The notes beneath the pieces were generated by a model that did not search any database, was not told the DNA's origin, and saw nothing but the letters and a program-made list of their open reading frames with translations. This document shows positions 2,369-22,155 of a stretch of 25,645 bases of DNA, piece after piece. Source of the DNA: a virus. A program made the translations under genes and the position numbers. The stretch is from IMG/VR virus record IMGVR_UViG_3300028837_002278, positions 1-25,645 of that record, one strand, 5' to 3'. How positions within the stretch are numbered: position 1 is the first letter of the stretch; the number at the start of each line of letters is the position of its first letter.

Positions 2369-2689
2369 ATGAAGATAGAACACTTATCAATCAATAAAAT
2401 ATTTTGGAAGTCTATAGGAATGCCACCACCAAAAGCTGAGTATAAATTTCATTCTACCCGAAAGTGGCGAATTGACTATGCTTGGCCAGATATTAAATTA
2501 GCTATAGAAATTGAAGGCGGTGTATTTAAGCGTAGCCATGGGCGACATACTAATCCTATGGGCTATATTAAAGATTTAGAAAAATACAATGCATTAACAG
2601 AAGCTGGGTGGGCTCTTCTTAGATATATTCCCGGCAAAATTAATTATAATCAAATTGTTAGAGTTTATAATGGAGCGGAGTTGAGATGA
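2369..2689 (+). CDS. PD-(D/E)XK endonuclease of the Vsr/DUF559-like fold, phage type
   Basis: The core reads FHSTRKWRIDYAWPDIKLAIEIEGG, then a GRHTNPMGYIKDLEKYNALTEAGWALLRYIPG tail (given here in short pieces: GRHTN, DLEKYN, GWALLRY). D36, E47, E49, H60, D69 and N74 are the conserved polar positions of the Vsr/DUF559-like nuclease fold, with E47-x-E49 forming the metal-binding signature. Small proteins of this type are common in phage replication and recombination regions, where they probably nick or process DNA. At 106 residues it is a single minimal catalytic domain. The ATG lies three bases after the preceding stop. The TGA overlaps the start of the first repeat gene as ATGA. The exact substrate is unknown. 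Confidence 0.85.
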   Translation: MKIEHLSINKIFWKSIGMPPPKAEYKFHSTRKWRIDYAWPDIKLAIEIEGGVFKRSHGRHTNPMGYIKDLEKYNALTEAGWALLRYIPGKINYNQIVRVYNGAELR

Positions 2690-2907
2690 ATCATAGTACT
2701 AAATTTTGGGTTATGGGTGGATCTAGGTCTGGGTCATCTAGGGCTGGGTCTAGGTCGTCTAGTTCTAGGTCTAGGTCTGGGTCGTCTAGTTCTAGGGCTA
2801 GGTCTTATAGGGCTTGGTCTAGGTCTTCTGGGTCTAGATCTAAGTCTAAATCTGGGATTTGGTCTGGATTTAGACCTGGGTCTTTGTCTGGATCTGGAAT
2901 TGAGTAA
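2686..2907 (+). CDS. Low-complexity Ser/Gly/Arg repeat ORF, copy 1 of 3
   Basis: The frame opens with MNHSTKFWVMGG and continues as alternating Ser with Gly, Arg or Lys for about 60 residues, encoded by TCT followed by GGG, AGG, GGA and similar codons. The start overlaps the endonuclease stop as ATGA. The first 46 bases are identical to copy 3 at 3369, and the start is also shared with copy 2 at 3180. A second forward frame is open across the same DNA (about 2690-2920, first good start GTG at 2717) and would give alternating Leu with Gly or Asp, ending LELSNTFY. In that frame most differences between repeat units are silent (CTG, CTA, CTT, TTA all Leu). Which frame is used, or whether ribosomes shift between them, cannot be settled from the sequence. 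The function is unknown. Confidence 0.4.
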   Translation: MNHSTKFWVMGGSRSGSSRAGSRSSSSRSRSGSSSSRARSYRAWSRSSGSRSKSKSGIWSGFRPGSLSGSGIE

Positions 2908-2940
2908 TACTTTTTATTAATTTAATCATAGGAGATTATT

Positions 2941-3180
2941 ATGCAAACATTAAATAATTTACAATCGTATTTAAATAAAAAAATTGTGATTTATTGTTGT
3001 CGGTATATTTATACCGGAACAGTAATAAGCATAGATGACTTTTCTTTACGATTAAAAGATGGTGGGATTATATATGAAACCGGAAGTCATAACGCCGATA
3101 ACTGGGAAAGTTTTGAGGCTATAAAAAAGGATCATTGTGTCGCTTTACAATCGATAGAAAGCTTCGGTGAATTTAAATAA
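2941..3180 (+). CDS. Conserved phage protein of unknown function, 79 aa
   Basis: The sequence LNKKIVIYCCRYIYTGTV, then YETGSHNADNWESFEAI, and a C-terminal IESFGEFK matches a small protein that I know from many phage early regions: KKVxIYCxRYxYTG, IVYETG and an AIExFG ending. No biochemical role is established for it. The beta-rich pattern with the G-x-x repeats suggests a small barrel-like fold. AGGAGA at 2931-2936 gives a good ribosome site, stronger than for its coupled neighbours, so it may be translated independently. It lies between repeat copies 1 and 2, and its TAA overlaps the ATG of copy 2 as TAATG. Confidence 0.75.
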   Translation: MQTLNNLQSYLNKKIVIYCCRYIYTGTVISIDDFSLRLKDGGIIYETGSHNADNWESFEAIKKDHCVALQSIESFGEFK

Positions 3181-3356
3181 TGAATCATAGTCCCAGATTT
3201 TGGATTATGGCTATGTCTGGGCTTTGGTCTATGTGTGGCTCTGGGTCTGGGCTTTGGTCTATGTGTGGCTCTGGGTCTGGGGTTAGATTTAGATCTAGGT
3301 CTTGGTCTGGATTTAAAGCTAGGTCTTTGTCTGAATCTAGATTTAGGCCTGAGTAA
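3180..3356 (+). CDS. Low-complexity repeat ORF, copy 2 of 3
   Basis: This frame encodes 58 residues starting MNHSPRFWIMAM and includes a perfect tandem duplication of GLWSMCGSGS (residues 14-33), then Ser/Arg/Phe-rich sequence ending RFRPE. It starts in a TAATG overlap with the upstream stop. Compared with copies 1 and 3 the N-terminal changes are T to P, K to R and V to I. The alternative frame reads through as Leu/Phe alternating with Gly, Cys, Asp or Lys and ends at a TAA that overlaps the ATG of copy 3 (3367-3371). That coupling is better than the 12-base gap left by this frame, so either frame may be the real one. Confidence 0.38.
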   Translation: MNHSPRFWIMAMSGLWSMCGSGSGLWSMCGSGSGVRFRSRSWSGFKARSLSESRFRPE

Positions 3357-3368
3357 TTTGTCATGCTA

Positions 3369-3521
3369 ATGAATCATAGTACTAAATTTTGGGTTATGGG
3401 TGGATCTAGGTCTGGATCTGGGTTGTCTAGATCTGGGTCTTGGTCTGGATCTGGGTCTAGGTCTGGGTCTTGGTCTGGATCTGGGTCTAGGTCTGGGTTT
3501 ATGTCTGAGGCTGGCTCTTGA
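3369..3521 (+). CDS. Low-complexity repeat ORF, copy 3 of 3
   Basis: The frame gives 50 residues: MNHSTKFWVMGG identical to copy 1, then Ser alternating with Gly, Arg and Trp, with GSWSGSGSRS duplicated at residues 23-42. It ends at TGA 3519-3521, leaving 45 bases before the AlpA-like gene. The alternative frame continues to a TGA that overlaps the ATG of that next gene as ATGA (3567-3570), the junction style used across this operon. This is further evidence that the Leu-alternating frame may be translated. No domain is recognisable in either product. Confidence 0.38.
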   Translation: MNHSTKFWVMGGSRSGSGLSRSGSWSGSGSRSGSWSGSGSRSGFMSEAGS

Positions 3522-3566: not shown

Positions 3567-3794
3567 ATGATAAATTTAAAAATTCTTCGGTACAAACAGC
3601 TCTTCGAACTTGTCCCACTAAGCCGGTCAAGCCTTTGGCGTAGAATTAAAAATAAAACTTTTCCTAAACCGATCCCACTTGGCGGTATCTCTGTCGGCTG
3701 GGTGTATCAAGATATTGTTGATTGGATTAACCAGCAGAAAAAACAAAATATTCCTGATAAAGCCTTGGGAGGTGAGCCATGCAACGACAAATAA
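3567..3794 (+). CDS. AlpA-family helix-turn-helix regulator
   Basis: The 75-residue product has the AlpA (prophage CP4-57 regulator) layout: RYKQLFELVPLSRSSLWRRI at residues 8-27 is the helix-turn-helix with the SRSSLWR recognition helix, followed by KTFPKPIPLGG and the wing-like VGWVYQDIVDWINQ. Such proteins bind DNA to control excision or phage gene expression. AGGAG sits ten bases before the ATG. The last 16 bases overlap the DnaB-like gene, and a terminator-like hairpin begins right at its stop codon. The C-terminal tail after residue 58 is outside the conserved domain. The family call is firm; its target promoter is not visible. Confidence 0.88.
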   Translation: MINLKILRYKQLFELVPLSRSSLWRRIKNKTFPKPIPLGGISVGWVYQDIVDWINQQKKQNIPDKALGGEPCNDK

Positions 3795-4204
3795 AAAAGC
3801 CTGTCTCCTCACAGGATAAACAGGCTTTTTCTAAAAATTACGCCGAAGATAATATCATTTTTAACAACGTAAAGCAACCACATTCGGATGAAGCCGAGCA
3901 ATCTGTTTTAGGCGGTTTAATGTTGGATAATTCGGCATGGAATCGGATTGCTGGCCGTATTTGTGAGGCTGATTTTTACCGCACTGAGCATAAGTTAATT
4001 TTCCGTGCAATATCTGAACTAAGTAAAAGCAAAAAGCCTTTTGATATGGTTACGCTTTGCGAAGTATTAAAAGAACATAAAGCTTTTAATGAAAGTTATT
4101 TATTTGAATTAGCCAACAATACGCCTACTTCTGCTAATATTGATGCGTACTGCGATGTTGTTATAGAAAGGTTAAAGAAGAAAACTAATGGGGAAAACTT
4201 ATGA
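3779..4204 (+). CDS. Stand-alone DnaB N-terminal domain protein
   Basis: Residues 34-138 match the N-terminal domain of replicative helicase DnaB: PHSDEAEQSVLGGLMLDNSAW, DFYRTEHKLIF, PFDMVTLCEVLKEH and ELANNTPTSANIDAYCDVVIERL (in DnaB style throughout). The protein ends there: the linker and the RecA-type ATPase domain are absent, so at 141 residues it cannot unwind DNA. In DnaB this domain forms the collar that contacts primase and loaders. A free copy could act as a loader, an adaptor for host DnaB or primase, or an inhibitor; this is inference. GGAGG precedes the ATG, the only usable start before the domain. The first 33 residues are unlike DnaB and lie over a terminator-like hairpin. The next gene overlaps as ATGA. 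Confidence 0.85.
   Translation: MQRQIKKPVSSQDKQAFSKNYAEDNIIFNNVKQPHSDEAEQSVLGGLMLDNSAWNRIAGRICEADFYRTEHKLIFRAISELSKSKKPFDMVTLCEVLKEHKAFNESYLFELANNTPTSANIDAYCDVVIERLKKKTNGENL
3794..3833 (+). terminator. Intragenic terminator/attenuator-like hairpin
   Basis: AAAAAGCCTGT (3794-3804) and ACAGGCTTTTT (3820-3830) form a perfect 11-bp stem with a 15-base loop and a U-run on the 3' side. A smaller hairpin can use the same 5' arm: CCTGT (3800-3804) with ACAGG (3811-3815). The structure begins at the AlpA-like stop codon and lies inside codons 6-18 of the DnaB-like gene, so it would act before that gene is fully transcribed unless ribosomes open it. The two mutually exclusive pairings are typical of attenuators. 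Confidence 0.6.
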
Positions 4205-4539
4205 CTGATATTAAACAAAATTCAAAATTAGATTTGCAAGATAAAAATGGTAAAAACATCCGCGAAGGAGACGTTTTATTAATACCTGATGAATATACTG
4301 ATTCTATTAGTTCTATAGGCGGCCCCACTTACTCAGATAATCAAACATGTTCAGTAATTTTTCAGAAAGATAGAGCGGCTTATGGAGTAAATATTTTACA
4401 TTCTAGTTGGTTTACAAAAGGATTTCTTAGCTTTGATATGATGCTTGCAGACATGGGCGAAGATTTTGTTAAAGAAGAAGTGGAGATATTAGGGAATATC
4501 TATGATAATCCAGAATTAATTGAGGAATATGAATTATGA
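4201..4539 (+). CDS. YopX-like phage protein
   Basis: Two ends carry the YopX family signature: DKNGKNIREGDVL at residues 14-26 (family style LxDKNGKEIYEGDIV) and EILGNIYDNPELI at residues 95-107 (family style EVIGNIYENPELL). Between them is a beta-rich region. YopX proteins are common in phages of many hosts and have no established function. The usual N-terminal RAWD segment of the family is missing, so this is a short form of 112 residues. The ATG overlaps the DnaB-like stop as ATGA and its own stop overlaps the RNA ligase start in the same way. Confidence 0.75.
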   Translation: MTDIKQNSKLDLQDKNGKNIREGDVLLIPDEYTDSISSIGGPTYSDNQTCSVIFQKDRAAYGVNILHSSWFTKGFLSFDMMLADMGEDFVKEEVEILGNIYDNPELIEEYEL

Positions 4540-5174
4540 TTAAGTATCCTAAAATCCAATCAATTTTTAAACGTGACCAAAATACTCATTATTTCAGAGA
4601 GAATGAGTTCTCGTTGCCTGAATTTAGTTATTTGGCTGATAATGCTTGGCTTTTTACAGAAAAAATTGACGGAACTAATGTCAGAATTGACTGGAATCAT
4701 GAAACAAAACAAATCGAAATTGGTGGCCGTACTGATAATGCTCAAATGCCAATATTTCTATTAAAACGATTGAATGAATTATTTACTATTGATAAATTTA
4801 AAACTGTTTATCCTGATGTTTCAATGACATTGTTTGGTGAAGGATTTGGTAATAAAATTCAATCTCGAGGAAGTAAATATTTGCCAGATTCTGTTAATTT
4901 TGCACTATTTGATGTTTATATACATGACACATGGTTGGAAGCATCTAATATTATAGATGTTGCTGAAAAATTATCAATAATTTGTGTACCAAATATAGGG
5001 ATTGGATCAATAAAATATATTATTGATATAGTAAAATCTGGGTTAATTTCTAATTTTGGTAGTTTTGAAGCGGAAGGGATTGTCGCTAAACCTACCATTA
5101 ATTTGCTTACTAGAAGAGGACAAAGAATTATTACCAAAATTAAAAGTGCTGATTTTAAAATTAATCAAACTTAA
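4536..5174 (+). CDS. ATP-dependent RNA ligase (Rnl2-like)
   Basis: The nucleotidyltransferase motifs occur in order: motif I EKIDGTNVRI with the AMP-accepting Lys43, GGRTDN near 63-68, FGEGFGNKI at 100-108, motif IIIa FALFDVYI at 122-129, motif IV EAEGIVAKP at 178-186, and motif V TKIKSADFK with Lys201 and Lys203. This fits the RNA ligase/Rnl2-type Pfam family, which seals 3'-OH/5'-phosphate RNA ends through enzyme-AMP and RNA-AMP intermediates. Phage RNA ligases typically repair tRNAs cut by host anticodon nucleases. At 212 residues it is a minimal catalytic domain without the Rnl2 C-terminal domain. No polynucleotide kinase is seen nearby. It is the last large gene of the plus-strand operon. 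Confidence 0.9.
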   Translation: MIKYPKIQSIFKRDQNTHYFRENEFSLPEFSYLADNAWLFTEKIDGTNVRIDWNHETKQIEIGGRTDNAQMPIFLLKRLNELFTIDKFKTVYPDVSMTLFGEGFGNKIQSRGSKYLPDSVNFALFDVYIHDTWLEASNIIDVAEKLSIICVPNIGIGSIKYIIDIVKSGLISNFGSFEAEGIVAKPTINLLTRRGQRIITKIKSADFKINQT

Positions 5175-21896: not shown

Positions 21897-21943
21897 GGTT
21901 AAATTAGGTTAAATTAGGTTAAATTAGGTTAAATTAGGTTAAA
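21897..21943. repeat. 10-bp tandem repeat GGTTAAATTA, 4.7 copies
   Basis: Four perfect copies of GGTTAAATTA (from 21897) are followed by a partial fifth, GGTTAAA. The period equals about one helical turn, so the AAATT tracts are in phase and the DNA is likely to be curved. This kind of array serves as iterons, packaging or regulator sites in other replicons. No function is evident here. Confidence 0.8.
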
Positions 21944-22102: not shown

Positions 22103-22155
22103 TTGCTTTGCTGAGCTTCGCTGCACTTCGTTTTGCTTCGTTGCGCTGCGCTACG
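22103..22155 (-). repeat. Degenerate GCGAAGC/GCAAAACG repeat after the portal stop, copy B
   Basis: On the minus strand, three bases past the portal TAA, the DNA reads GTAGCGCAGCGCAACGAAGC, then AAAACGAAGTGCAGCGAAGC and similar short units. It shares GCGCAGC and GAAGCAAAACG with the copy that follows the RNA ligase stop at 5179-5205, in the same orientation relative to the upstream gene. Confidence 0.6.

Follow-up and report, generated by a model that had tools for sequence, protein, structure and literature searches.

A two-gene phage module of an Sm-like protein and a separate serine-arginine/glycine/tryptophan repeat tail

Introduction

Sm proteins bind RNA and are known above all from splicing. 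Three of them, SmD1, SmD3 and SmB, carry RG-rich tails that are disordered and arginine-methylated (PMC8765754). In bacteria, the Sm-fold RNA chaperone Hfq is tuned by a disordered C-terminal tail (PMC5606850), and the LSm domain of Edc3 recognises short motifs and brings about phase separation (PMC4320757).

Here we describe a phage locus that resembles each of these systems in part. It lies in a 25,645-nt stretch of viral DNA (IMG/VR record IMGVR_UViG_3300028837_002278, positions 1 to 25,645), which we call the window. The phage Sm-like protein has the same predicted fold as the Sm/LSm/SmAP/Hfq superfamily, with Z scores of about 10-11 to archaeal SmAP and to spliceosomal Sm/Lsm chains, but its sequence match is below the family thresholds. 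As in SmD1, SmD3 and SmB, a disordered, Arg-rich tail of dipeptide type goes together with the Sm protein. The tails of those proteins are covalent, however, whereas in the phage the Sm-like ORF stops at 3180 and a separate ORF encodes the tail. The phage repeat is also different, Ser-(R/G/W) with much Trp and a variable copy number, and methylation of it is not expected. The Hfq tail is acidic and covalently attached (PMC5606850), the phage tail basic and separate. In P-bodies, the LSm domains of Edc3 and LSM14 dock short peptides and build condensates, but they belong to the eukaryotic mRNA decay machinery, their helical leucine-rich motif is unlike the phage leaders, and docking in the phage is only inferred. 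The Sm fold itself is already known, and the action that we propose resembles that of known Sm tails. What our searches suggest to be new is the tail family, which has no match in the libraries tried, and its pairing with an Sm-like gene; in the literature we found no description of phage Sm-like proteins with such repeat partners.

Results and Discussion

The gene cluster in the window

An earlier reading, made from the letters of the window alone (the sequence-only reading), had described the interval 2686-3521 as a family of three short genes with a common leader and a TCTNGG hexamer repeat. The leader pattern ATGAATCATAGT..TTTTGG.TTATGG matches the window only at 2686, 3180 and 3369 (shuffles expect 0.00), which limits the family to three copies here. 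The interval also contains a gene which that reading had not singled out, and which encodes the Sm-like protein (Table 1). Copies 1 and 3 are identical at their start as had been stated, over 47 nt and not 46. That all copies have the same leader holds for the peptide, MNHS[T/P][K/R]FW[V/I]M followed by a (Ser-X)n tail in all three ORFs, but not for the DNA, since copy 2 is identical only over the first 12 nt and retains the MNHSxxFWxM motif. The ATGA and TAATG overlaps with real genes are as had been described, at copy 1 with the gene 2369-2689 and at copy 2 with the gene 2941-3180. Copy 3 starts 13 nt past the stop of copy 2, and an alternative start at 3363 would give it 52 aa.

On the plus strand of the 25.6 kb window TCTNGG occurs 34 times, 29 of them inside the 552 bp of the three copies, and on the opposite strand 9 times. 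The in-frame Ser-NGG (TCT-NGG) pairs number 11, 7 and 11 in copies 1, 2 and 3, and the tracts are more irregular than those of most relatives. The absence of a named family with this make-up was borne out as far as we could search: the three tail ORFs had no family match in Pfam or PHROGs, and the defence-system models of PADLOC gave no match for copies 1 and 3.

Table 1. Genes of the cluster and their positions in the window.
Feature	Position	Strand	Remarks
Upstream gene	2369..2689	+	phrog_503, unknown function, E 1.9e-26; ATGA overlap with copy 1
Tail gene copy 1, 73 aa	2686..2907	+	leader MNHSTKFWVMGG and Ser/Arg/Gly-rich tail
Sm-like protein (predicted LSm fold), 79 aa, subtype A	2941..3180	+	AGGAG upstream of start
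Tail gene copy 2, 58 aa	3180..3356	+	leader MNHSPRFWIMAM and (SG/SR/SW) tail; TAATG-coupled to the Sm-like gene
Tail gene copy 3, 50 aa	3369..3521	+	leader MNHSTKFWVMGG and (SG/SR/SW) tail

Fold and family of the Sm-like protein

The structure of the window protein (2941-3177) was predicted by AlphaFold2 with a pLDDT of 90.6, as a helix (H3-10) and then strands. The predicted structure meets the criterion for an Sm fold, an N-terminal helix and a five-stranded bent beta barrel. In Foldseek the top 50 solved chains were almost all Sm/LSm, the best being 4m75_K of Lsm1-7 (E 4.8e-4, TM 0.72), and VIA-align with the SmAP chain 1jri_A gave a Z of 11.1 over 70 residues. PDB 3BY7, a cyanophage-derived Sm-like structure, was not among the structural matches listed. 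Among the relatives there is a second subtype, B (RTVT..SWVADTGRF), which is related to the subtype A of the window (hhalign 96.5%, E 7.7e-10). Its predicted structure is also an Sm fold (pLDDT 88, Z 9.9), and its top Foldseek matches include the LSm domains of LSM14, Tral and Edc3.

The similarity is weak at the sequence level. Pfam LSM was seen in 3 of 32 subtype-A members (best E 0.032) and was not found in the window protein, which does not meet the curated cut-off. Weak profile links led to DUF6897 (3e-4) and NF041655, the MM0924 family (1e-4), and the PADLOC models had no convincing match to the Sm-like proteins. Since the sequence match is below the family thresholds, we claim an Sm-like fold and not membership of a named Sm, LSm or Hfq family. 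The gene 2941-3180 is, by its predicted structure, that of an Sm/LSm-fold protein, of which neither the ring state nor RNA binding has been shown.

Pairing of the Sm-like gene with the tail ORF

A search for ATGAAY with three TCTNGR units nearby found 81 viral stretches with more than 40 ORFs for short proteins, each with a leader and an in-frame (S[R/G/W])n tail. Several copies with one leader per phage were frequent among these relatives, and six TCTNGG units alone were found in more than 120 viral stretches among the matches listed. A stricter list holds 205 ORFs in 112 records, and for one contig (L093) 14 tail ORFs with related leaders are listed. The sequence-only reading would have been refuted by relatives without the repeat and without a conserved leader, and this did not occur.

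When the genes at the array loci were clustered, one family stood next to them in 71 contigs, mostly at a distance of 0-14 nt, and its member in the window is the Sm-like gene. Searches of whole records found subtype A in 13 further records and subtype B in 7 further, in which the gene had been missed at first because of its overlap with antisense ORFs. For a reciprocal test, independent of the repeat, the Sm-like proteins were used as the sole query. The Sm-like relatives among the pattern hits, on uncultured viral contigs, were 223 of subtype A and 155 of subtype B. A locus was scored as paired when an array ORF started between -15 and +160 nt from the Sm-like stop. Among the best 80 of the 223 subtype-A relatives, 79 loci had enough sequence, and a tail ORF was directly downstream of the Sm-like gene in 75 of them; for subtype B it was so in 57 of 78 loci. 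The most frequent start offset was -4, an ATGA overlap, in both subtypes, and comparable windows elsewhere in the subtype-A loci were positive in only 13 of 769 cases. Among the subtype-A loci scored as array-less, one (L232) has a leader with a one-unit tail and another (L246) many TCTNGG units elsewhere in the locus. No adjoining array was recognised for 21 of the 78 subtype-B genes, but at least one of these (L315) does have an array, whose start was not recognised.

In the window itself, the tail ORF begins at or just after the Sm-like stop (copy 2, by its TAATG overlap), and in each of copies 1-3 a short leader runs into a tail where Ser alternates with R, G or W, encoded by NGG. That the Sm-like gene and the tail ORF form a two-gene phage module is well supported by these observations.

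In the records of some array carriers neither Sm-like subtype was found, for example in L011, L037 and L075, whose arrays have window-type MNH leaders; perhaps these records are fragmentary, or the arrays are orphans.

The repeat unit and selection on the protein

About half of the subtype-A loci seemed to be repeat-less as long as the repeat was defined by TCT, but their downstream DNA showed TCGNGG, TCANGG, AGCNGG and AGTNGG. TCTNGG as a conserved DNA or RNA motif was overturned by these arrays. Across the relatives the serine codon is TCT, TCG, TCA, AGC or AGT, with a mean purity of 0.97 within an array. The subtype-A arrays were divided into TCT 33, TCG 25, AGC 6, TCA 5 and AGT 1, and those of subtype B into TCG 20, TCT 16, AGC 13, TCA 6 and AGT 2. 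The hexamer make-up given in the sequence-only reading is true of the window, but it is only one of five serine-codon versions, and what is conserved is the dipeptide Ser-(R/G/W). In every serine-codon class the residue encoded by NGG is R at about 0.3-0.4, G at about 0.3-0.45 and W at about 0.25-0.33, with AGG as the arginine codon in some lineages and CGG in others. Five serine codons are used and the other residue stays R, G or W, which implies selection on a protein in which Ser alternates with one of the three.

The composition of 206 arrays was near binomial, with variance ratios of 1.5 for R, 1.9 for G and 1.1 for W, and only 5 of the 206 miss one of the three residues. The order was near random and adjacent pairs were near expectation. 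The first base of NGG looks almost like independent draws among three codon types, a behaviour that is not usual where arrays grow by slippage. Since one base per hexamer varies, the target of a diversity-generating retroelement, with a reverse transcriptase and a template repeat nearby, was a conceivable reading.

A test blind to the frame was made on the 92 arrays preceded by an ATG at the Sm-like stop, and 87 of them were in the Ser-NGG frame, in agreement with the earlier claim that the copies are genes which behave as operon members. Antisense coding of Pro-Arg (CCN AGA, where the variable base is silent) was rejected, since leaders, overlapping starts and reading frame all belong to the sense strand, and units such as TCA would introduce stop codons if the other strand were read. 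NGG codons can act as early-codon translation inhibitors via peptidyl-tRNA drop-off (PMC12204400). As a role for the arrays this is no more than a side idea, as their NGG codons mostly begin after codon 8-10, outside the early positions.

GGG makes up 94% of the glycine codons in the arrays as compared to 13% in the Sm-like genes, NGG is retained even where synonymous codons exist, and in TCT arrays the synonymous third serine base is as conserved as the first two. Codon usage so far from that of the Sm-like genes implies a strong homogenisation by repeat recombination. An explanation can also be sought in the RNA: the Sm-like protein would bind the repetitive transcript, and the array would be an autoregulatory or sponge RNA that is incidentally translatable. 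The codon bias, the conserved third base, the GG at every 6 nt regardless of serine codon and the RNA-binding-type fold of the neighbouring protein all speak for such an element. We still find it unlikely, because serine is retained although its codons come from two separate boxes (TCN and AGY), nearly all of the arrays tested are in the right frame, the leaders are conserved as peptides and the R:G:W balance is maintained. Furthermore, TGG is the sole Trp codon and has GGG (Gly) and AGG/CGG (Arg) as its one-step neighbours, so that, as we infer, the NGG form is expected if Trp is required. The constancy of NGG is explained in purely protein terms only together with homogenisation of the units, and an extra RNA-level role of the array is not excluded.

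The tails have a median length of 53 aa, a net charge of about +7, about 13% Trp and about 14% Arg. Short multi-copy genes for such proteins could be thought to encode cationic, Arg/Trp-rich effectors, membrane-active or host-inhibiting, with the Sm-like protein as carrier or antidote. This appears very unlikely to us: half of the residues are Ser, the defence-system models gave neither a convincing Sm-like match nor any match for copies 1 and 3, and the neighbours are replication, recombination and DNA-modification genes and not a lysis cassette.

Leaders

The leader before the tail is 8-14 residues long. Subtype-A leaders are basic with an aromatic residue near the end (RGKKQKW, TKRTKYR, HSTKFW) and have a mean net charge of +3.6, whereas those of subtype B are mostly uncharged and hydrophobic (IGNVNTLWW, NIVILEIG), with a mean of +0.4. 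Leaders are more alike where the Sm-like proteins are more alike, both in the full set of pairs (Mantel r 0.51, p 0.001) and within subtype A (r 0.30, p 0.001), and the correlation is absent within subtype B (r 0.014, p 0.4). Co-inheritance alone could be enough for the agreement between leader and subtype. The leader variation is mainly synonymous (pN/pS 0.15), with the caveat that the pairs were picked for similarity. Leaders of the window type, MNH[S/N/I/L]xx[F/Y]W, were also found in other contigs with different serine codons (AGT or TCA).

The peptide MNHSTKFWVM has an exact match in the YgjP/DUF45 metallopeptidase (motif NHSxxFW) of one genome, and a plasmid match is inside an M48 peptidase. 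The leader could from this be taken as a scrap of the metallopeptidase motif, and the copies as decayed gene fragments. We find such an origin hardly credible and judged the match to be a coincidence, the only one found in one contig scan of cellular genomes with the window-type leader. No HExxH was found before the leader in the three window ORFs, all of which start with the Met of MNHS. In relatives this position is taken by MNHN, MNHI, MNHL or MNLN, or by basic leaders of an unrelated kind, and the arrays come after Sm-like genes.

Turnover of the arrays

In the locus pairs L210/L211, L272/L275, L252/L256 and L018/L067 the Sm-like DNA is identical over 240 nt and the arrays differ, mostly by multiples of six; the lengths are 165 as compared to 81 nt in the first pair and 228 as compared to 102 nt in the last. 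Identical arrays recur in different contigs (34 pairs, some possibly from related samples), which argues against a gross assembly artefact, but short-read collapse of arrays cannot be excluded in single cases. Length changes that are nearly always multiples of 6 between phages with identical Sm-like DNA, and serine codons homogenised within arrays, are also features of a selfish or passive repeat, whose hexamers multiply through slippage and recombination and are carried along after the Sm-like gene, having hardly any function or none. Drift would, however, fix one unit type, and arrays that miss R, G or W are rare. The pairing is also specific to one gene family, the leader is conserved and the start codons overlap the Sm-like stop, and we regard a passive repeat as quite unlikely.

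A possible mechanism

The reading that we prefer, and to which we give no more than an even chance, is that of a two-gene phage ribonucleoprotein module, with the Sm-like protein as the docking site of the leader and a disordered R/W tail for binding or condensing RNA. The Sm-like protein and its tail partner would be produced together via translational coupling, and the leader would dock on the Sm-like protein, the leaders of the two Sm subtypes differing accordingly. The cationic, Trp-rich and unstructured tail may then lead to multivalent RNA binding or condensation of the complex. The tail would play a part similar to that of the RG tails of SmD1/SmD3, or of the contacts between peptides and LSm domains in P-bodies, but it is supplied in trans from a separate, multi-copy and fast-changing gene. 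The genes, their pairing and reading frame, the R:G:W composition and the leader-subtype correlation are observed, and the fold is that of the predicted structures. Physical docking, RNA binding, condensation and a benefit to the phage are inferred only, and against the mechanism stands that there are no data for a contact between the two proteins or for RNA binding by either. The lack of a leader correlation within subtype B, the subtype-B genes without a recognised array and the array carriers without an Sm-like gene also count against it.

It is conceivable, although we hold it as a doubtful extension, that phages of uncultured hosts build their own P-body-like RNA condensates. The Sm-like protein would recruit interchangeable tails via subtype-specific leaders, and the tails would be diversified by shuffling of hexamer units with the R:G:W balance fixed. 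Such condensates could shield phage transcripts or keep them in compartments, or they could silence those of the host.

An Sm-fold protein beside a purpose-made low-complexity partner would offer a small genetic system in which to study the use that Sm proteins make of disordered, Arg-rich tails. Evolution has tested these natural tail sequences, in which the sticker/spacer composition (Ser/Gly with Arg/Trp) is fixed and the length varies, and they can be useful for condensate physics. The module is also a warning that repeat-like ORFs dropped by gene callers can be conserved genes.

Distribution and genomic setting

The module is present in hundreds of uncultured viral contigs and is unnamed in the libraries searched. 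Of 50,697 phage records nearly all lack the Sm-like gene, and no plasmid was found to carry subtype A, from which we infer that the hosts are probably uncultured. BLAST of the tail ORFs against phages and plasmids was uninformative, the repeats being of low complexity, and the phage match, in Synechococcus phage S-SCSM1, was rejected as it is antisense to a long gene. In the circular record MW202825.1 from Manatee Spring, flagged UNVERIFIED_CONTAM, we found the Sm-like gene and two tail ORFs (L202:2744-3355). The Sm-like gene and the first tail ORF are unannotated there, and the second tail ORF is UOF82383.1, a 'hypothetical protein'.

The window genes around the module have Pfam matches to CsrA, Gp157, AlpA, the DnaB N-terminal domain and RNA ligase, and the portal, terminase and major head genes are on the other strand. 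In the relatives the neighbours varied and include DNA methyltransferases, ERF/RecT, PD-(D/E)XK nucleases and deaminases. Such neighbours fit early expression but name no function.

Some further features of the window were observed. A csrA gene at 1881-2084 (Pfam CsrA, E 8.6e-21), 0.6 kb upstream of copy 1, is a second gene of RNA-regulator type in the same early region. At 3779-4204 there is a stand-alone DnaB N-terminal domain of 141 aa without the helicase domain, and an unrelated gene follows its stop at 4204. The RNA ligase (PF09414, E 1.9e-12) lies at 4536-5174, about 1 kb downstream of the module. Two ten-base tandem arrays are found in a gap between structural genes, GGTTAAATTA at 21897-21943 with 4.7 perfect copies, and GCTTCGCTGA at 22105-22152 with 4.8 copies and 71% matches.
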